DNA from: an uncultured Bryobacteraceae bacterium
GTDB lineage: Bacteria > Acidobacteriota > Terriglobia > Bryobacterales > Bryobacteraceae
Reading direction: 5' to 3'
Assembly (NCBI GenBank): GCA_938027685.1
Contig: CALJAM010000001.1
Coordinates: 124,001 to 188,000 of the forward strand
Length of the DNA stretch: 64,000 bases
The translations under genes and the position numbers were made by a program. Below the pieces are notes generated by a model. The model was not told the DNA's origin, searched no databases, and saw only the letters and a program-made list of their open reading frames with translations. Shown piece by piece: positions 51,317 to 60,310 of this stretch (within the stretch, counting starts at the first letter, position 1; every line of letters begins with the position of its first letter).

Positions 51317-51787
51317 GTGATTTACTCACGAGCTTCCGAGTACGCAATCCGGGCCTTCATGCATCTGGCGCAGGTGCCGGATGGCCGGTATGTGATGGTC
51401 AAACAGATCGCAGAGCGGGAAAAGATTCCCGGCCACTTCCTGGCCAAAATCCTGCAACAGTTGGCGCGCAAGGGGCTGTTGCGATCGAGCAAGGGGCCCA
51501 ACGGCGGTTTTGCCTTGCGCCAGCCCGCTTCGCAGATCGCGCTGGTCCACATCGTAGAGGCTCTTGACGGCCTGGCCGATTTCGAGAAATGCGTCAGCGG
51601 GCTGGCCGAGTGCACGGACGATGCGCCCTGCCCGATGCATGACGCCTGGAAGGATCTCCGTTCCCGTATCATGGAATATTTGGAGCGTACGACCATCGCC
51701 GACCTGGTCAAGGCCCTGGAAGAGAAACGCAAGACGCTCGAGAAGACGCGGCGCACGCGCACGATGGCCTTGACGCAGCACGGCTGA
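51317..51787 (+). CDS. Rrf2 family transcriptional regulator
   Basis: A 156-residue winged-helix regulator. The helix-turn-helix covers residues 2-65 ([45 protein letters not shown] in register). The Fe-S-binding cysteines are present as Cys-x6-Cys-x5-Cys in [22 protein letters not shown], so it probably senses iron-sulfur status, oxidants or nitric oxide. The start is GTG 51317. Upstream, 146 bp contain a GGCAG-GAGT-CTGCC hairpin at 51227-51240. It lies 46 bp upstream of clpP, with which it may be transcribed. Confidence 0.9.
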
Positions 51788-51833
51788 GACGGCCGGCCCC
51801 AGCCGGGAATGGGGCGGGCGCAGGAGGATGACG

Positions 51834-52454
51834 ATGATCAGCAACTCGGTGCTGATCCCGATGGTGATCGAGCAGACCCCGCGCGGAGAGCGCGCCTACG
51901 ATATTTATTCCCGCCTGCTCAAAGAAAACATTATCTTCCTAGGGACGCCGATCGACGACACGGTGGCCAACCTGGTCATTGCCCAGATGCTCTTCCTGGC
52001 GGCCGAGGATCCCCAGAAGGACATCAATCTCTACATCAATTCGCCGGGCGGCTCCATCACCGCGGGACTGGCCATTCTCGACACGATGCGTTTCGTGGAG
52101 CCCGACATCGTCACCATCTGCGTGGGCCAGGCGGCTTCCATGGCTGCCGTCCTGCTGGCCGCCGGGACCAAAGGAAAGCGCTACAGTCTCCCGCACGCGC
52201 GCATCCTCATTCATCAGCCCTCGGCGAGCGGGCTGGCCGGTCAGGCGGCCGATATCGACATTTACGCCAAGGAAATCCTGCGCATGCGCGAGATCATCAA
52301 CCAGATTCTCGCCGAGTGTACGGGGCAGCCCGTGGAGAAAGTAGCCCGGGACGTGGACCGCGATTACATCATGAGCGCGGAACAGGCGCTCGAGTACGGC
52401 ATGATCGACCGTGTGATCACGACGCGCGAGCTCTCACCCGCGGCCAAGGTCTGA
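51834..52454 (+). CDS. clpP: ATP-dependent Clp protease proteolytic subunit
   Basis: Serine protease barrel that works with ClpX or ClpA, 206 residues. Catalytic Ser in [11 protein letters not shown] (about residue 101), His in [10 protein letters not shown] (about 126), and Asp in [33 protein letters not shown] and [15 protein letters not shown] are also standard. ATG 51834 is spaced six bases from GGAGG; ATG 51828 would abut it. No clpX or tig gene is adjacent, unlike the common tig-clpP-clpX order. It converges on rhaB. Confidence 0.96.
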
Positions 52455-52464
52455 ACGTCCCGTT

Positions 52465-53943
52465 TCAGGAAACGCCCTCCCCAGGACGCAGGGAGCAGAA
52501 ACGTCGGTAGGCCGTATCCCAGTCTGCCTGCGGCGCCGGCTCGAAGGTTTCCAGCGGGAAGGAGCGGCGAATGAGAGAGCGCGCTTCCCGCACATCGCGG
52601 AGGTGCCCCGCACCGATCGCCTGCACCACCACGTTGCCCGCGGCCGTCGCCTCGCTAGGTCCTGCGATCACCGGCCGGTTCGTGGCGTCGGCTACGAACT
52701 GATTGAGGACGCGGTTGCGCGAGCCCCCGCCCACGATGTGGATCCGCTCGATGCGCCGCCCGAGCAGCGACTCCAGGCTTTCCAGCACCTGTCGGTAGCG
52801 CAGGGCGAGGCTTTCCAGAATGGTGCGGCACATGGGGCCTGGCGGCTCCGGGGGCCGCTGCCCAGTGCGCTGACAGAAGTCAGCTATCTTCTCCGGCATG
52901 CGGCCCGGCTCCAGAAACGCATCCGGGTCGATGACGGCCGTGAAGGGAGGCGCCGCGGCGGCCAGTCGCGCAAGTTCCTCGTAGGTGTATTCCCGGCCTT
53001 CCAGCGCCCAGGCCCGCCGACATTCCTGCAGCAGCCACATGCCGGCGATGTTCTTGAGGAAACGGATGGTGCCTGCCGCGCCGATTTCGTTGGTGAAGTT
53101 CAACGCCAACGAGCGCTGGTTGATGATGGGCTCGGACAACTCCACGCCCATGAGCGACCATGTGCCCGAACTGATGTAACACCAGTCGTCGCCCTCGGCC
53201 GGCACCGCCGCCACCGCTGACGCCGTATCGTGGCAGCAGGTCGCGTAAACGGGCGTCTCGCCTGCACCGGTCTCCTCCGCCACGTGAGGCAACAGCGGCC
53301 CCAGAAGCGTACCCGGCATCACGATTTCGGGAAGGATCGTCGTGGGCAGGCCCAGCCGCTCCAGCAGTTCGTAGGCCCAGCGCTTCTTCACCGGGTTGTA
53401 GAATTGCGTCGTGCTCGCGTCGGTCAGCTCGCAGCGGGTGATGCCCGTCAGCCAGTAGTTGAACAGATCCGGCATCATCAAGAAGGTGCGCGCGACCTGG
53501 AGGGCGGGCGAGCCGGCCAGCTTCATGGCATGCAACTGGTAAAGCGTGTTCAGTTGCATGAACTGGATGCCGGTCTGCGCGAAAATCTCCTCGCGTGGAA
53601 TGACGGCGAAGGTGCGCTCGAGCATGCCGTTGTTTCGCGCGTCGCGGTAGTGGCGCGGATTGTCGACCAACGCGCCGTCCTCGCCAAGCAGGGCGAAATC
53701 CACGCCCCAGGTATCCACGCCCACGCCGGCCAGTTTGAGTTTGCGGCCGCGGCAGGCCGCGGTCAGTCCCTGCAGGATTTCGTGGAACAGCCGCAGCGTG
53801 TCCCAGTAAAGACCGGTGGGCAGGCGGACGGGAATGTTTGGGAAGCGATGCAGCTCCTCCAGCGTTAGCGAATTTTCGCCCACCGTACCGAGCATGGCGC
53901 GGCCGCTCTCCGCGCCCAAGTCAAAAGCCAGGTAGTATCGCAT
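52465..53943 (-). CDS. rhaB: Rhamnulokinase
   Basis: Phosphorylates L-rhamnulose to L-rhamnulose-1-phosphate; FGGY/ASKHA kinase fold, 492 residues. Seen: FDLGAESGRAMLG (phosphate 1), GVDTWGVDFALL with the catalytic Asp region, NTLYQLHAM, CCHDTASAVAAVP, YISSGTWSLMGVE and HIVGGGSRNRVLNQFVADATNRPV in register near the C-terminus. No rhaA or rhaD is in the window, but a rhamnose transporter gene lies about 9 kb away. The beta-propeller gene is 42 bp upstream on the same strand. Confidence 0.95.
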   Translation of the reverse strand: MRYYLAFDLGAESGRAMLGTVGENSLTLEELHRFPNIPVRLPTGLYWDTLRLFHEILQGLTAACRGRKLKLAGVGVDTWGVDFALLGEDGALVDNPRHYRDARNNGMLERTFAVIPREEIFAQTGIQFMQLNTLYQLHAMKLAGSPALQVARTFLMMPDLFNYWLTGITRCELTDASTTQFYNPVKKRWAYELLERLGLPTTILPEIVMPGTLLGPLLPHVAEETGAGETPVYATCCHDTASAVAAVPAEGDDWCYISSGTWSLMGVELSEPIINQRSLALNFTNEIGAAGTIRFLKNIAGMWLLQECRRAWALEGREYTYEELARLAAAAPPFTAVIDPDAFLEPGRMPEKIADFCQRTGQRPPEPPGPMCRTILESLALRYRQVLESLESLLGRRIERIHIVGGGSRNRVLNQFVADATNRPVIAGPSEATAAGNVVVQAIGAGHLRDVREARSLIRRSFPLETFEPAPQADWDTAYRRFCSLRPGEGVS

Positions 53944-53985: not shown

Positions 53986-55218
53986 TCATCCCACGATGCC
54001 GGTCAGATCCAGCAGGTAGATCTGGCGACCGCCCCGGTGAGGCGAATCTACGGTGACGAGCCTTCCGTCAGGGCTGAATCGCGGATGTAGGTCGCAGCGC
54101 CACTCGCCCGTGTACTCGGGCGGGGAATGAAAGCTCGCCAACGGCACGCGGCGGCCGGTCTCGGTGTCGAAGAGGTACAGGTGTTGCATCCGCTGTCGGT
54201 CCGGGTAGGTGTCGTTCAGAATCCAGCGCTTGCCCGGCAGGTAGCTGCAATGGCCGTCGCCGGTCATTACTTCCGCACCGACCGGCTCCACCCGCTCGCT
54301 GCGGTCTTCAAAGAGGTAAAACCTTCCGCCGAGGGGTGGTCGCGTCGCCCACGCAAGAATATGGCGCGCATCGCGCCAGATGAAATGGGAGACGCCCCCA
54401 AAGCCGTCGACCAGATGTAAATTCTTGCCGTCCGGGTCCGCAGTGAACATACGTGTGAAGCGCCGTGAACCCGCTGCGCCCCCGGTCCAGCGGTGCAGGA
54501 AAATGAACCGCCTGCCGTCAGGCGAGATCAGCAGATGATTGAACCAGTGCTTGGCGCCCGTCCAGTCGAACCGCGGGTTGGGCGGCGGGCTCGGTGTGCG
54601 CACGATCTGAGCGATGGAAATGACGAGCCTGGTCCGACCCGTCTTTAAGTCCACGTGCCAGATGCCGGCGTCCTCGGGCGCGAGCACCTCTCGGTTGGGG
54701 TCGGGGATGCCGTTGTAACCGTAGCCCGGACGGGTGTCGGCCAGGCGCCGGAAATCCGTGGTTACCGCCCAGCGCGCGTCTGGGCTGACCGCATAGACCG
54801 GCGCGGGTAGCTTTCGTTTTCGCCCGCTGCGCACATCCAGAATGACCGCGATGTAACGATCTCCATCGCGATCGTTGTAAATGACCTCCCGATCCGAGCC
54901 CGGCAACCATTGCAGCATGGCGCCTTGCTGCCAGTTCCATGCCTTGGTCTCCGCCAGTGGAATCCAGCGGTCTCCCTCCCCCAGATCGATCATGCCGAGC
55001 CGGACGAGGTCTTCGGGCCGCGGCGACCGGTGCTCGAAGTCAACCTCCATGCCGAGAACGTAGCGACAGGCGGGGTCGAACTGCAGCTTGTCATAGTAGC
55101 CGAACCAATGAAAGCGCGGACCGCGCGTGATGGCGCGAACCGGCGCCTCTGCCGTCCTCCGCAGCGTGGCCAGCCCCGCGAGCCATTCGCGCCTGCTGAG
55201 CAAACCAGCCGAGCCCAT
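53986..55218 (-). CDS. Secreted beta-propeller protein, Tat-like signal
   Basis: A 410-residue protein of unassigned function. The N-terminus has a twin-arginine-like motif (SRREWLAGLATL, residues 8-19). The rest alternates short beta strands with propeller-type loops: YAVSPDARWAVTTD, HLLISPDGRRFIFLHRW, DPDGKNLHLVD, SHFIWRDARHILAWA, GHCSYLPGKRWILNDTYPD, HPRFSPDGRLVTVDSPHRGGRQIYLLDL. This pattern is distantly like oligogalacturonate lyases (PL22) and other PD40-type propellers; I cannot confirm active-site residues. Its position before rhaB and opposite a sulfatase suggests a role in breaking down plant or algal glycans (inference). Confidence 0.65.
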   Translation of the reverse strand: MGSAGLLSRREWLAGLATLRRTAEAPVRAITRGPRFHWFGYYDKLQFDPACRYVLGMEVDFEHRSPRPEDLVRLGMIDLGEGDRWIPLAETKAWNWQQGAMLQWLPGSDREVIYNDRDGDRYIAVILDVRSGRKRKLPAPVYAVSPDARWAVTTDFRRLADTRPGYGYNGIPDPNREVLAPEDAGIWHVDLKTGRTRLVISIAQIVRTPSPPPNPRFDWTGAKHWFNHLLISPDGRRFIFLHRWTGGAAGSRRFTRMFTADPDGKNLHLVDGFGGVSHFIWRDARHILAWATRPPLGGRFYLFEDRSERVEPVGAEVMTGDGHCSYLPGKRWILNDTYPDRQRMQHLYLFDTETGRRVPLASFHSPPEYTGEWRCDLHPRFSPDGRLVTVDSPHRGGRQIYLLDLTGIVG

Positions 55219-55260
55219 GGGCCTTCCTTCCGGAAGCGCTTATTGTACAATCGCCATGCC
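55219..55260. promoter_or_regulatory. Divergent promoter region with two palindromes
   Basis: This 42-bp gap separates the propeller gene (minus) from the sulfatase operon (plus). It contains two perfect 10-bp palindromes, CTTCCGGAAG (55227-55236) and ATTGTACAAT (55242-55251). The second one presents a TACAAT -10-like hexamer on both strands; on the plus strand it ends nine bases before the sulfatase ATG. Either palindrome could be an operator. Confidence 0.5.
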
Positions 55261-56658
55261 ATGGCCGAGATGACCCGTCGCGATCTGCTCGCAGCACCGT
55301 TTGTCCTTTCCTCCGCAGCCCGGTCGCGCCCCAACGTCGTGCTGTTCATGACCGACGATCACGGCGCTTGGGCTATGGGCTGCTACGGCTGCGCCGAGAT
55401 GCATACGCCCAACCTCGACCGACTGGCCGCCTCGGGTGCACTGTTCACGCGCGCTTACGCTGCCACACCCGTCTGTTCGCCCAGCCGCATCACTTACATG
55501 ACGGGCCTGATGCCGTCCCATCACGGTGTGCAGGACTATCTCTTGCCCCGGGATTCGTTCGGTCCGCAGTCCCGCCGCTTCCTCCAGGGTCTGCTCACCT
55601 TCACCGAGCTGCTGGCCAAGGCCGGATACACCCTGGGTATGTGCGGCAAATGGCACATGGGCAACGACGAGATTCCGCAGGCCGGATTCACTTACTGGGT
55701 GACTGTTCCCGGCGGTGGAGGAACTTATCGGGACCCGGTCTTCGTCGTTCAGGGGCAGTCGAAGAAGATCCGCGGTTTCAAGACGGACATAGTAACTGAC
55801 TACGCCTTGGAGTTTCTCGACCGGCGCCGCGCGGGACCCTTCTTCCTGATGATCCCTTACTATGCTCCCCATACGCCCTACCACTACCAGCCGGAAATCT
55901 ACCGTGCTCCTTACGCGACGTCACGTTTCTCGTGTTTCCCGCGGGATCCCGTGCACCCCTGGCAGCGACCGGAGCTCCGGCAGCATCACGGCAATGAGGA
56001 GTCCATGCGCAGTTACTGCGCCCTGGTTACGGCCGTGGACTACAACGTGGGGCGCGTCCTGCGCCGGTTGGAGGAGCTTGGCTTGAGGGAAGACACGGTG
56101 GTGATCTTCACCGCCGATCAGGGCTGGAACGCAGGCCACCACGGCCTGTGGGGGAAGGGCAATGGCAGCATCCCTTTCAACATGTACGAGGAGTCCGTCC
56201 GGGTGCCATTGATCTGGAGCCATCCCGGGCGGATTCCCGAAGGTCTGGTGATCCGGGAAATGGTGTCGAATTACGATTTCTTTCCCACCATCCTGGAGTA
56301 TCTTGGCGTAGGCGCTCCGCCGGACCCGCGTCGCCTCGGCCGGAGCTACGCGTCGCTGCTAGCCGGGCACAAGCCTAAATGGAATAACCGGCTGTACTTC
56401 GAGTACGCCTACGTGCGGGCCGTGCGCACCGAGAATCTGAAGTACGTCGAGCGGACGCCGGAGTGGCCGAGCGAGCTCTACGATCTGGAAGCCGATCCCA
56501 GAGAATCGCGAAACGTAATTGCCGATGCGGCCTACCGTAAGATCCTCGACGAGCTTCGGCGGGAGCTGGCCGGAGTTTTCCAACGGATCGGCGCCCCGCC
56601 CCTCGCCGAGTGGCGCAGGACGACCAGCCAGAACCTCAACCTTTATCCGAGCCCGTGA
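55261..56658 (+). CDS. Sulfatase, Tat-like signal
   Basis: Sulfate-ester hydrolase, 465 residues. MTRRDLLAAPFVLSSAARS (4-22) is a short twin-arginine-like signal. The core shows NVVLFMTDDHGAWAMGCYG (metal ligands), the formylglycine motif CSPSRITYMTG, CGKWHMGND, and FTADQGWNAGHHGLWGKGN. The order fits the arylsulfatase/choline-sulfatase superfamily. ATG 55261 is the only in-frame start near the promoter; the upstream open frame lies inside the opposing gene. It is the first of three closely spaced genes. Substrate is unknown. Confidence 0.88.
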   Translation: MAEMTRRDLLAAPFVLSSAARSRPNVVLFMTDDHGAWAMGCYGCAEMHTPNLDRLAASGALFTRAYAATPVCSPSRITYMTGLMPSHHGVQDYLLPRDSFGPQSRRFLQGLLTFTELLAKAGYTLGMCGKWHMGNDEIPQAGFTYWVTVPGGGGTYRDPVFVVQGQSKKIRGFKTDIVTDYALEFLDRRRAGPFFLMIPYYAPHTPYHYQPEIYRAPYATSRFSCFPRDPVHPWQRPELRQHHGNEESMRSYCALVTAVDYNVGRVLRRLEELGLREDTVVIFTADQGWNAGHHGLWGKGNGSIPFNMYEESVRVPLIWSHPGRIPEGLVIREMVSNYDFFPTILEYLGVGAPPDPRRLGRSYASLLAGHKPKWNNRLYFEYAYVRAVRTENLKYVERTPEWPSELYDLEADPRESRNVIADAAYRKILDELRRELAGVFQRIGAPPLAEWRRTTSQNLNLYPSP

Positions 56659-56710
56659 GGGGGGACTCGCACGGAGTGTTATCTTAGCCAACATTGGAGG
56701 CGTTCAGGAG

Positions 56711-57796
56711 ATGAGCGAAAGGATTTCACGCCGCGGATTCCTTGCTGCCGCGCCTGTCGCGGGAGGGGTGCGCGAACCGGTCGTCGTCGAGCCCTTCCCC
56801 GTCGAGCAAGGGAAAGTGCAGGCTGAGCCGCTGCGCATCGTGACGATGTACCGGTTCGAGCCGGAGGAGGTACGTCGGATCCAGGAGGCAGCCGGTGCCG
56901 TCAAGGTCGAGCTGATCATCGCCCGCACGCGCGAGGAGTTCCGGCAGCGCTTGCCCGAAGCCGAAGTAGTTTACGGCAGCCTGAGCGGGGCGGATCTGGA
57001 CTATGCGCCCCGCCTGAAATGGTTGCAGGCGGGAGCCGCGGGCGTCGAGTGGATGGATGCCAAGCTCCGTGCCAGTCCCGTGGTGGTGACCAACTGCGCG
57101 CGGATCTTCGCCCCCGGGATCTCGGAGACGGCCATGGGCATGCTGCTTTGTTTGACGCGCGGGATCACGAAGTACTACTTCCCCCAGTTCCTGCGCCGCG
57201 AATGGAAGCCGGTGGGCAGTCCCAAATCCGACGATCACATCGAGCTGGCAGGCCGCACGATGGGAATCGTGGGCATGGGCGGGATCGGCATGGCCGTGGC
57301 GCGTCGCGCGTACTACGGCTTCGACATGCGGATCGTGGGGACCGACGCCAAGCCTATACCCAAGCCTGAATATGTCGCCGAGCTGCACGACCCCGGCTGG
57401 TTCGACGAAATGGTGCCGCAGGTGGACGTCCTGGTCGCTGCCGCACCGCACACTCCGCAAACCGAGCGCATGTTCAACGAGCGCGTCTTCCGCCGCATGA
57501 GGCCTACAGCTTACTTTCTGGCGCTCTCGCGCGGACAGCTCTTCGACGACATGGCCCTGGTGCGGGCTCTCAAAGAGGGCTGGATTGCGGGCGCAGGATT
57601 GGACGTCTTCCCCAAGGAGCCGCCTCCGCCCGACCACCCGATCTTCGATTGCCCGAATGTGGTGATGACCATGCATACCTCCGGTTGGAGTCGCGACCGG
57701 CAACGCCGCCTGATCGAGTTCTTCGCGGAGAACGTGCGCCGCTACGTGCACGGCCTTCCGCTGCTGAACGTGGTGGACAAGCAAAGGGGGTACTGA
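56711..57796 (+). CDS. D-2-hydroxyacid dehydrogenase with Tat-like N-terminus
   Basis: A 361-residue NAD-dependent D-isomer-specific 2-hydroxyacid dehydrogenase. The Rossmann motif is GIVGMGGIGMAVA with an acidic residue at the end of the next strand (RIVGTD), indicating NAD. The catalytic trio is visible: Arg in ALSRGQLFDD, Glu in LDVFPKEPPPPDHPIFD and His in MTMHTSGWS; the usual NVGRG is ALSRG here. Unusually, the N-terminus reads SERISRRGFLAAAPVAGGV (2-20), a twin-arginine-like signal with a very short hydrophobic part. If exported, it would need a bound cofactor. It lies 52 bp after the sulfatase gene and 3 bp before the amidohydrolase gene. Confidence 0.83.
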   Translation: MSERISRRGFLAAAPVAGGVREPVVVEPFPVEQGKVQAEPLRIVTMYRFEPEEVRRIQEAAGAVKVELIIARTREEFRQRLPEAEVVYGSLSGADLDYAPRLKWLQAGAAGVEWMDAKLRASPVVVTNCARIFAPGISETAMGMLLCLTRGITKYYFPQFLRREWKPVGSPKSDDHIELAGRTMGIVGMGGIGMAVARRAYYGFDMRIVGTDAKPIPKPEYVAELHDPGWFDEMVPQVDVLVAAAPHTPQTERMFNERVFRRMRPTAYFLALSRGQLFDDMALVRALKEGWIAGAGLDVFPKEPPPPDHPIFDCPNVVMTMHTSGWSRDRQRRLIEFFAENVRRYVHGLPLLNVVDKQRGY

Positions 57797-57799
57797 GTC

Positions 57800-59509
57800 G
57801 TGCGAAAACTAGCGTGGCTGCTGGCACTCCCGACTGTCGCGCCCGTGGCTGAGACCGCCGACGTGGTTTACTACAACGCGAAGGTCATTACAATGTGGCC
57901 GGGCCGCCCGCTGGCGCAGGCCATCGCCATTCGCGGAAACCGGTTTCTGGCGGTTGGCTCCAATGAGGAGGTCCTGAAGCATGCGGGGCATGCGACGCGC
58001 CGGGTGGACCTGGGCGGACGCTGCGTCGTTCCGGGCCTCATTGACAGCCACACTCATCCGGTGGGGGCCGCGCTGAGCGAGCAGGAGGGGCCCGTCCCGA
58101 TCATGCACACCATCGCGGACATACAGGCCTATATTCGGCAACAGGCCGCGCGCCTGCCTCCCGATCGCATTATTGTTGTGCCCAAGGTTTACGCCACCCG
58201 ATTACGGGAACGTCGCTATCCGACACGCTACGAACTCGACGAGGCCGCTCCCGGGCGGCTCGTGCTGGCCGACAACGGCTATGCTTCGGTGCTTAGCTCA
58301 GCGCTGCTCGCCAAGATGAACATCACTCGCGATACTCCGCAGCCGCCCGATGGAAAGATCATCAAGGACGCCGACGGCGAGCCGACCGGCCTGATACTCG
58401 GTGCGCCTGGCCTGTTGGGACCGTTACGTCGCGCCCGCCAGCCCACGCCCCGCGATCTGGTCTGGGCGATCGAGAGCATGCAGAAGAAATACAACGAAGC
58501 CGGCATCACCAGCACGATCGACCGTGGACAAGGACCGGAAGGATTCCGCGCCTACCAGGAGCTGCGGCAGGCGGGTCGCCTCACCGTGCGCACCTACGTT
58601 ACGTTTCTCATCGGAGCCCAGGGCACGCCGCAGCAGGTGCGGCAAGAGATCATGCGCATTCCTTTCGTCACGGGCTTCGGCGACGAATGGCTGCGCGTGG
58701 GTTCGATCAAGACCATCGTAGATGGAGGGATCCTGATCGGCACCGCCTATCTGCGGGAGCCCTACGGCGAAAACACCTCGGTCTACGGCTACCATGATCC
58801 GGATTACCGCGGCGTCCTTTACGTGCCGAAAGAAAATCTGTTCGAGATGGCGCTGACGGCCAACCGCCTGGGGTGGCAGATGACCGCTCACACGGCGGGC
58901 GGCGGCGCCACCGATCTTCTGCTCGATGCCTACGAAGCGGCGGACCGCGAGCGGCCCATCCGCTCGCGGCGGTTCACCGTGAGCCACGGCAATTTCCCCA
59001 ACGAGGAGGCTCGAGCGCGCGCACGCCGCATGGGAGTGCTGTTCGATTGTCAACCCGCCTGGCACCACTTCGACGGCCCCGTTCTGAAGGACGTCTTCGG
59101 TCCCGCGCGGATGCGACATTTCATTCCCCTGCGTTCGCTGCTCGACGAGGGGATCATCGTTGCGGGCGGCTCCGATCACATGATCCGCTTTGATGCCCGC
59201 AGCGCCGTCAACCCCTACCATCCGTTTTTCGGCATGTGGATGGCGATCACTCGCCGTACCGCAGACGGCTCGGTGCTGGGCCCCGAACAGCGCATCAGCC
59301 GGGAGGAAGCGCTACGATTGTGGACGTTGAATGCCGCCTATCTGACCTTCGAGGAGAACCTCAAGGGATCGATCGAGCCTGGGAAACTGGCTGACTTCGT
59401 CGTGATCTCCAAGGACTACCTGAGCTGCCCGGAAGAGGAGATCAAGGACATCGAGGCGCTTCTGACCGTCGTGGATGGCCGTGAAGTGTATCGCCGGCCC
59501 GGCTGGTGA
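57800..59509 (+). CDS. Amidohydrolase, YtcJ-like (amidohydrolase family 3), secreted
   Basis: A 569-residue metal-dependent hydrolase. It has a signal peptide (1-19) from GTG 57800, an N-terminal beta-sandwich segment (DVVYYNAKVITMWPG), the metal-binding VPGLIDSHTHPVG (H-x-H), a long insertion typical of YtcJ, AHTAGGGATDLLLDAYE, VSHGNFP and GGSDHMIRFDARSAVNPY (final Asp/His), and the closing GSIEPGKLADFVVISKD. YtcJ relatives act on N-acyl or cyclic amide substrates, but the true substrate is unknown. It is the last gene of the sulfatase operon and is followed by a strong hairpin. Confidence 0.87.
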   Translation: MRKLAWLLALPTVAPVAETADVVYYNAKVITMWPGRPLAQAIAIRGNRFLAVGSNEEVLKHAGHATRRVDLGGRCVVPGLIDSHTHPVGAALSEQEGPVPIMHTIADIQAYIRQQAARLPPDRIIVVPKVYATRLRERRYPTRYELDEAAPGRLVLADNGYASVLSSALLAKMNITRDTPQPPDGKIIKDADGEPTGLILGAPGLLGPLRRARQPTPRDLVWAIESMQKKYNEAGITSTIDRGQGPEGFRAYQELRQAGRLTVRTYVTFLIGAQGTPQQVRQEIMRIPFVTGFGDEWLRVGSIKTIVDGGILIGTAYLREPYGENTSVYGYHDPDYRGVLYVPKENLFEMALTANRLGWQMTAHTAGGGATDLLLDAYEAADRERPIRSRRFTVSHGNFPNEEARARARRMGVLFDCQPAWHHFDGPVLKDVFGPARMRHFIPLRSLLDEGIIVAGGSDHMIRFDARSAVNPYHPFFGMWMAITRRTADGSVLGPEQRISREEALRLWTLNAAYLTFEENLKGSIEPGKLADFVVISKDYLSCPEEEIKDIEALLTVVDGREVYRRPGW

Positions 59510-59534
59510 AGGCCGCCCCGCACGAGGGCGGCCT
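59510..59534. terminator. Bidirectional hairpin between amidohydrolase and gpmA
   Basis: AGGCCGCCC (59510-59518) and GGGCGGCCT (59526-59534) form a perfect 9-bp stem with a seven-base loop, starting at the base after the amidohydrolase stop. It lies 15 bp beyond the gpmA stop of the converging gene. No T-run follows. Confidence 0.6.
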
Positions 59535-59548
59535 CACATCGCGCAATT

Positions 59549-60310
59549 TCAGGCCGGCTGCGGCTGGCGTCTGCGGCCCTGCGCCGCCACGGCCTCCATG
59601 GCCTTGCGCACAGCCTCGGGATCCCCGAGATAGTAGCTGCGCAGCGGCCGCAGATCCTCGTCCAGCTCGTAGACCAGCGGGATGCCGGTGGGTATGTTCA
59701 GGTGGACGATTTCCTCGTCGGAGATGTTGTCCAGATACTTGACTAGCGCGCGCAGGCTGTTGCCGTGGGCCGCGATCAGTACGCGCTTGCCCGACTTGAT
59801 GGCCGGCGCTATGGCTTCGTGCCAGTAAGGCAGGAAGCGCTCCACGGTGTTCTTGAGGCTCTCAGTCACCGGAATCAGGTGCTCGGGCAGATCGCGGTAG
59901 CGCGGATCGTGCCCGGGCCAGCGCGGATCGCTTTTCTCCAGCGGCGGCGGCGGGATGTCGTAACTCCGACGCCACAGCAGCACCTGCTGCTCGCCGAACT
60001 TCTCGGCCATCTCCGCCTTGTTCAGACCCTGCAGCGCGCCGTACATGCGCTCGTTCAGCCGCCAGGAAATCTGCACCGGGATCCACATCAGGTCCATCTC
60101 GTCCTGGACGATCCAGAGCGTGCGGATGGCGCGCTTGAGCACCGAGGTGAAGGCCAGATCGAACGTGAAGCCCTCGCGTTTGAGGATGCGCCCGGCTTCG
60201 CGCGCCTCCTCGATGCCGCGTTCGGACAGATCGACGTCGGTCCAGCCCGTGAAGCGGTTCTCCTTGTTCCAGACGCTTTCGCCGTGTCGTAGCAGGACTA
60301 ACTTATGCAT
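59549..60310 (-). CDS. gpmA: 2,3-bisphosphoglycerate-dependent phosphoglycerate mutase
   Basis: Interconverts 3- and 2-phosphoglycerate. 253 residues of the histidine phosphatase superfamily: [27 protein letters not shown] in register (phospho-His in RHGES), [25 protein letters not shown], the proton donor Glu in that segment, and [30 protein letters not shown] Shine-Dalgarno precedes the ATG. Its stop converges on the amidohydrolase gene. eno lies 38 bp upstream on the same strand, so the two consecutive glycolytic steps are likely co-transcribed. Confidence 0.95.

Follow-up and report, generated by a model that had tools for sequence, protein, structure and literature searches.

A genus-level cluster of candidate exported catabolic enzymes in Bryobacteraceae, with a putative PL22-like propeller and a dehydrogenase bearing a Tat-type motif

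Oligogalacturonate lyase (OGL) of polysaccharide lyase family 22 (PL22) is a cytoplasmic enzyme with a Mn site of three His ligands and one Gln, in which H242 is the base. PdxB, a member of the D-2-hydroxyacid dehydrogenase family, is also cytoplasmic. It is described as turning over with a non-exchangeable NAD while reducing a second oxo acid (PMC5264612), and glucose–fructose oxidoreductase (GFOR) is described as a NADP-containing enzyme exported by the twin-arginine translocation (Tat) system (PMC7317946; PMC4628093). Here we compare with these systems a locus in a 64,000-nucleotide stretch of DNA from an uncultured Bryobacteraceae bacterium (GCA_938027685.1, contig CALJAM010000001.1, positions 124,001 to 188,000; the window), where genes for a beta-propeller protein (P), a sulfatase (S), a D-2-hydroxyacid dehydrogenase (D) and an amidohydrolase (A) lie together beside a rhaB-like gene. 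An original prediction had seen in them an undescribed periplasmic route for breaking down a sulfated compound. We lean instead towards a cluster of exported catabolic enzymes that is confined to one genus among the genomes searched and was assembled from genes that the family keeps scattered; the cluster is perhaps recent and perhaps co-regulated. The novelty rests in the components P and D and not in the block.

Gene order was compared among 237 genomes of the family, from 76 genera, and in a set of 61 relatives. In both sets the contiguous order P-S-D-A was found only in the window's own genome (G000) and in one congener (G002). The proteins of this congener are 82% (P), 81% (S), 89% (D), 90% (A) and 90% (rhaB) identical to those of the window, and its S-D and D-A spacings are about 49 bp and 3 bp. 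In the 81%-complete genome of a third congener (G001), P is unmatched and S, D and A find matches at 42%, 34% and 46% identity, so that none of the four is present at the level of an ortholog. With E-values of up to 1e-140 for S, 1e-100 for D and P and 1e-180 for A, orthologs of P, S, D and A were found in 81, 96, 79 and 36 of the 237 genomes, respectively, and all four occurred together in just 17. Where orthologs share a contig, the sole adjacency outside G000 and G002 is a divergent D-S pair in G024; in G539 there are 6.6 kb between the lowest coordinates of A and P, and looser pairs are P-S in G473 (28 kb), A-P in G414 (50 kb) and S-D in G034 (129 kb). In genomes assembled into few contigs, G525 (2), G532 (3), G424 (4) and G029 (40), orthologs on the same contig are separated by about 0.4 Mb or more. 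Many of the family genomes are fragmented, and this can mask some linked cases. Within the genomes searched the block is a trait of one genus. Because the order is confined in this way, a dedicated conserved pathway is not supported and a conserved-operon reading was rejected. With the order present in 2 of 237 family genomes, it comes close to being unique to the window's genome, one of the outcomes that the original prediction had named as counting against it.

D exceeds the cut-offs of both D-2-hydroxyacid dehydrogenase Pfam domains (PF00389/PF02826) and, like DDH-type enzymes and glyoxylate reductases, has a GxGxxG motif (GxGGxG at 188-193) and an Arg-Glu-His triad (R274-E303-H322), together with the acidic residue D212. 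In 81 sequences G188, G190, G191, G193, R274 and H322 are invariant and E303 is nearly so. It differs from the described dehydrogenases in that most members have a Tat-type N-terminus, that it reaches the cut-off of none of the NCBIfam models listed (best matches 161 and 143 bits), and that it has a near-invariant C-terminal VVDKxxGY. The N-terminus reads SRRGFL; R7 and R8 are near-invariant in the 81 sequences, and [S/T]RR followed by an Ala-rich stretch is present at 76 of 82 D loci (four from the wider order and 78 family matches, which are all of the 80 but G436 and G485; the 76 exclude L362, a false match in a frame that is open at its start). In a smaller set the Tat-type motif was found in 18 of 21 D orthologs with a regular expression; this and the other ortholog counts made with it include some false matches and misses. 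The twin-arginine-type N-terminal motifs predicted for P (SRREWL), S (TRRDLL) and D are all present and recur across orthologs. An ortholog of D is present in 79 of the 237 genomes and 49 of the 76 genera, and in a draw of 297 genomes from the phylum only two, the window's own included, had D at an E-value of up to 1e-90. The family has been divided into 22 published subfamilies in a review whose main text does not contain 'signal peptide', 'periplasm' or 'twin-arginine' (PMC6303947), and a table elsewhere gives one released D-2-hydroxyacid dehydrogenase the entry 'No' with 'N/A' (PMC12502724). No Tat-exported or periplasmic D-2-hydroxyacid dehydrogenase was among the open-access literature matches listed, which do not cover subscription papers. 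D is probably exported through Tat with a captive NAD.

The genes around D were compared at 79 loci, L367-L369 having been dropped because opposite-strand open reading frames (ORFs) overlapped D; these neighbour tables come from a simple gene caller, whose called starts may be wrong. An M20 amidohydrolase, a bicupin (about 305 residues) or both lie within two genes of D at 17 of the 79 loci, in ten genera (for example L201, L207, L342, L354, L355 and L357-L359), and an M20 gene adjoining D is divergent from it in every case. Twelve of the 16 M20-grouped ORFs adjoin D and one (L215) is three genes off; the remaining three lie on the opposite strand at the loci that were dropped. Of the 13 bicupins, 11 adjoin D and two are at a distance of two genes. 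Judged by eye on the starts as called, signal-like N-termini occur in 12 of the 13 bicupins and in 9 of the 12 M20 proteins that adjoin D. Two M20 proteins that were scanned pass TIGR01891. Against NCBIfam, one of two bicupin copies matched GMP_PMI far under the cut-off (E 0.0023), a third had no match at E up to 1e-5, and there was no match to PDB at E up to 0.01; the bicupin was not assigned as ureidoglycine aminohydrolase because NCBIfam gives only this sub-cut-off match. We know of no name for this recurrent D-M20-bicupin module. A nitrilase-type amidase is encoded downstream near D at L337 and L350 (Pfam from L350 only), and in the window's genus an exported-type Amidohydro_3 protein, A, stands where other genera have the amide hydrolase of D. 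An amide hydrolase beside D thus appears to be a recurring theme. A scores 313 bits with PF07969 (cut-off 29.7), and its nearest solved relative, 3icj, is uncharacterised. Amide or lactam hydrolysis, as predicted for A, is a putative activity read from its membership of Amidohydro_3. Its N-terminus is hydrophobic and Sec-like by eye, with no RR, and the Tat-type motif was matched in 5 of 27 A orthologs. Export of all four proteins, as first proposed, is plausible, with N-termini of Tat type in P, S and D and Sec-like in A.

Two other D neighbourhoods were observed. In a distant D subgroup (52-54% identity; L382-L386) a DUF362-type protein is encoded at five loci and a HpcH/HpaI-type protein at four; the latter are mostly signal-like at the start (Pfam from L386 only) and one DUF362-type copy retains an SRRHFL start. 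At L183 (G024:C175), the S ortholog is divergent from D, a bicupin follows D and an alpha/beta-hydrolase follows S; relatives of this hydrolase (40-43%) directly precede A in five other genomes.

P belongs to a family without a specific Pfam model, in which PD40 is the sole common match (35 of 50 members). Sequence searches of PDB returned nothing useful (TolB at E 0.35 in one search, no match in a second). An AlphaFold model built from 50 sequences (pLDDT 89.9) had the OGL structures 3c5m and 3pe7 as its top Foldseek matches (E 4e-15 for 3c5m). In the VIA comparison the model aligned with the two OGL structures over 328-329 residues with Z-scores of 30.9 (3pe7) and 30.7 and a root-mean-square deviation of 3.3; the next fold scored 25.8 and other propellers about 23. 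A profile of nine PL22 proteins, gathered via L318 and plasmid records, matched the P profile in hhalign at 97.4% (E 9e-12) and 98.3% (E 2e-14). In control runs against the P profile, PL22 proteins taken singly reached 92.7% and 86.3%, and one PD40 propeller reached 11.7%. In the profile alignment H278 (in SHFIW) falls on H242 of OGL (in THEFW), H323 on H287, H378 on H355 and D376 on H353. P thus carries His at three of these columns and Asp at the fourth; R256 aligns with the Arg of ARMW, and the OGL Gln has no clear partner. Seven residues of P (H228, R256, H278, H323, R374, D376 and H378) do not vary among 50 sequences from several phyla. Unlike OGL, P lies below Pfam detection and most copies have a Tat-type N-terminus (72 of 92 orthologs). 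Based on the model and the conserved residues, P most likely represents a clade of PL22-like proteins whose metal site is altered and which act on uronate oligomers. PL22 itself was found in 1 of the 297 genomes of the phylum draw at E up to 1e-20.

The best 80 of at least 577 P loci, all at 54% identity or more, are spread over Acidobacteria, Planctomycetes, Verrucomicrobia, Kiritimatiellae and Chloroflexi; four of the 80 (L244, L251, L278 and L306) had no called P and were left out of the neighbour table. In Chloroflexi, P lies beside an oligopeptide-type ABC transporter gene set at seven loci (L273, L289, L300, L308, L312, L314 and L316; Pfam names read from L312 only), and the three copies checked (L273, L289 and L300) have no signal motif. 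This would fit an imported oligomer there and a periplasmic oligomer elsewhere. The window's genome has a second P paralog at 54% identity (L177; G000:C36:51558-52715), with a counterpart at 53% in G002.

Like sulfatases of the S1 type, S has a CxPSR formylglycine motif (C72-S-P-S-R76) and Sulfatase and SGSH_C domains; genes of the formylglycine-generating enzyme type exceed the cut-off in the window's genome. The Tat-type motif was matched in 20 of 22 S orthologs. The best-scoring solved relatives are of the N-acetylglucosamine-6-sulfatase type (7p24 and 5g2v). The kappa-carrageenan sulfatase 9fo1 is also among the relatives listed; it has been connected with a metagenome-derived genome of Bryobacteraceae (PMC11760155). 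S is present in 68 of 81 genomes with P versus 28 of 156 without it, and by genus in 31 of 35 versus 5 of 41, both counts being uncorrected for kinship. The co-occurrence of P and S is strong yet confounded. A sulfatase is found within two genes of D at five loci (L183, L212, L330, L331 and L370), compared with about four expected by chance from a rough estimate for these sulfatase-rich genomes, and the sulfatase was rejected as a general partner of D because the association is about chance outside G024 and the window's genus. Genomes of one genus, g37 (G038, G040-G043, G045, G046, G051, G052, G055 and G056), have about 180-250 sulfatase candidates each compared with 50 in the window's genome.

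The features of the locus are listed in Table 1. The gene calls, strands and gaps of the original prediction (42 bp between P and S, 52 bp between S and D and 3 bp between D and A) are borne out by the ORF coordinates. Both palindromes predicted in the P-S gap, CTTCCGGAAG and ATTGTACAAT, are present, and only ATTGTACAAT (55242-55251) is identical in the congener. This palindrome could yield a -10-like TACAAT on either strand and may be a -10 element for both directions; the idea of a symmetric promoter is weak, as the promoter scan predicts none in this gap and reports instead a weak stem of terminator-like form (55223-55236). The strong hairpin predicted after A is formed by a 9-bp inverted repeat without mismatches around a loop of 7 nt; it lacks a T-run and was not called a terminator by the scan of the locus. 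In G002 a 9-bp repeat of other sequence is seen by eye at the same position after A, which suggests that the hairpin structure is kept despite the change in sequence. Genes for enolase and a glgC-like nucleotidyl transferase are on the same flank as the His_Phos_1 gene, the A side.

Table 1. Coordinates of the P-S-D-A block and its flanking features, in positions of the window
Feature	Position	Strand	Remarks
Rrf2-family gene	51317-51787		Beyond clpP, rhaB side
clpP (CLP_protease)	51828-52454		Adjoins rhaB
rhaB-like rhamnulokinase (FGGY)	52465-53943	-	Pfam FGGY_N/FGGY_C over cut-off
P, Tat-type beta-propeller	53986-55218	-	Only PD40 in Pfam, sub-cut-off
Divergent P/S gap	55219-55260	none	Two palindromes; putative promoter role
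S, Tat-type formylglycine sulfatase	55261-56658	+	Pfam Sulfatase 2.5e-53; second ATG at 55270
D, Tat-type D-2-hydroxyacid dehydrogenase	56711-57796	+	Pfam 2-Hacid_dh_C 3.3e-46
A, Amidohydro_3 metal-dependent hydrolase	57800-59509	+	Pfam Amidohydro_3 6.1e-93
Hairpin, possible terminator	59510-59534	none	Between convergent A and phosphoglycerate-mutase-type gene
His_Phos_1 gene, phosphoglycerate-mutase type	59549-60310		Convergent with A

The rhaB-like gene had been included in the predicted route. Its product scores 461 bits with TIGR02627, below the cut-off of 528. In 37 family genomes rhaB is present in 9 of 13 with P versus 16 of 24 others (hand-picked lists, in which a contig-edge P fragment of G011 counts as absent and a partial rhaB in G019 and a partial S in G007 count as present). 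In two other genera rhaB adjoins clpP-family and Rrf2-family genes with no P nearby (L233 and, with rhaB first on its contig, L234). Since rhaB lies on a backbone shared with other genera and occurs independently of P, it was rejected as a pathway partner.

Several observations weigh against the reading of the locus as a cluster of exported enzymes with a uronate-active P and an exported D. PF14583 (PL22) does not match the P of the window and is reached by a single one of its 50 relatives (E 0.19). P departs from OGL at metal-ligand positions, with D[TLN]HPR[FYS] as the equivalent of the OGL motif HPHPSF. An ordinary PD40 propeller scores 95.8% against the PL22 profile; the score of P with that profile is therefore not specific alone, and it is the fold rank and the motifs that carry the case. 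This cross-match lowered our confidence in the exported cluster and raised that in a chance association of the genes. Six of the 82 D loci are without the RR motif, so some members are probably cytoplasmic, and 62 of the 79 D loci, like the D of the window, show neither M20 nor bicupin. Among the 37 genomes the median number of sulfatase candidates is 66 in those with P versus 20 in the others; P tracks sulfatase-rich genomes and its link with S need not be specific. Lastly, the promoter scan was without any sigma-70 match in the P-S gap. On the side of the components, a non-catalytic role for P, as a binding or scaffold propeller, agrees with the missing PL22 Pfam match, the replaced ligand-bearing motif and the cross-matching of propeller profiles; it is a substantial possibility, but one that we hold to be the lesser because invariance of this kind, at seven residues, is what active sites typically show. 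That D is an ordinary cytoplasmic 2-oxo acid reductase with a vestigial RR motif seems unlikely. Its h-regions are short and Ala-rich, Pfam TAT_signal (the third commonest match) is reached by just 27 of 81 D proteins even with an E-value limit as loose as 10, motif-less loci exist and some D genes adjoin a HpcH/HpaI aldolase-type gene without a signal-like start. However, the two arginines persist at most loci despite the variable stretch that follows, most M20 and bicupin neighbours have signal-like N-termini, and another subgroup has the HpcH/HpaI-type protein with a signal-like start and the DUF362 protein, of which one copy has the SRRHFL start.

As regards the block itself, if the four genes and rhaB formed a pathway dedicated, in the periplasm, to a sulfated compound with rhamnose and amide groups, this would account for their tight spacing, for an order kept in two congeners at 81-90% identity, for a uronate-lyase-like P and for the co-occurrence of P and S. 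We nevertheless consider it highly improbable, given that the order is kept in no other genus of the sets searched, that rhaB is independent of P and S, that all four orthologs so rarely occur together and that the commonest named partners of D are the M20 amidohydrolase and the bicupin rather than S or A. What stands of the sulfated-glycan theme is that an OGL-like P beside a sulfatase fits it; a dedicated conserved route for it is unsupported. The opposite view, that unrelated exported enzymes lie together by chance in one genus, agrees with the scattering of the orthologs elsewhere and with the near-chance frequency of sulfatases by D. This is a somewhat unlikely explanation, since the S-D and D-A spacings and the ATTGTACAAT palindrome are kept in the congener and a second S-D ortholog adjacency exists in G024.

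In the genus-level cluster that we favour, the four genes sit between a rhaB-clpP backbone and the phosphoglycerate-mutase/enolase/glgC-like set, with P (and rhaB) read one way and S-D-A the other from a gap that perhaps holds a symmetric promoter. P would carry out an OGL-like, metal-assisted beta-elimination, or at least binding, of uronate oligomers outside the cytoplasm, S would remove sulfate esters after formylglycine formation, and A would hydrolyse an amide or related bond. D would be exported folded, with NAD(H) bound, and interconvert 2-oxo and 2-hydroxy acids. To our knowledge there is no NAD pool in the periplasm, and D would for this reason most likely alternate two substrates on a non-exchangeable cofactor, in the manner of PdxB and GFOR. 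D shares its family with PdxB, but the models that give it higher scores are those of DDH-type enzymes and glyoxylate reductases. With GFOR and aldose–aldose oxidoreductase, both Tat-dependent with bound NADP, D has in common nucleotide dependence and, as a putative signal, a Tat-type N-terminus; those enzymes belong to the Gfo/Idh/MocA family and act on other substrates, and cofactor retention by D is put forward here by analogy.

As far as we know, NAD-dependent dehydrogenases are held to need the cytoplasmic NAD pool, and the exported NAD(P) exceptions met in this analysis are Gfo/Idh/MocA enzymes. By analogy, D would join the non-exchangeable NAD of PdxB and the Tat export of GFOR in one protein. 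A broader and quite tentative proposal, which we think rather unlikely to hold, is that Bryobacteraceae and their relatives carry out redox of 2-oxo and 2-hydroxy acids outside the cytoplasm. In this proposal a Tat-exported D with captive NAD(H) would work with an exported M20 or, in this genus, Amidohydro_3 hydrolase, with the bicupin and, in another subgroup, with a signal-bearing HpcH/HpaI aldolase-like protein, on amide-linked acids from sulfated uronate polymers that the P-type propeller, itself exported, has opened. If exported, the D subfamily would be a second enzyme family with nucleotide redox outside the cytoplasm, and the P family, which has no name in Pfam, would contribute a large set of possibly uronate-active proteins from several phyla.

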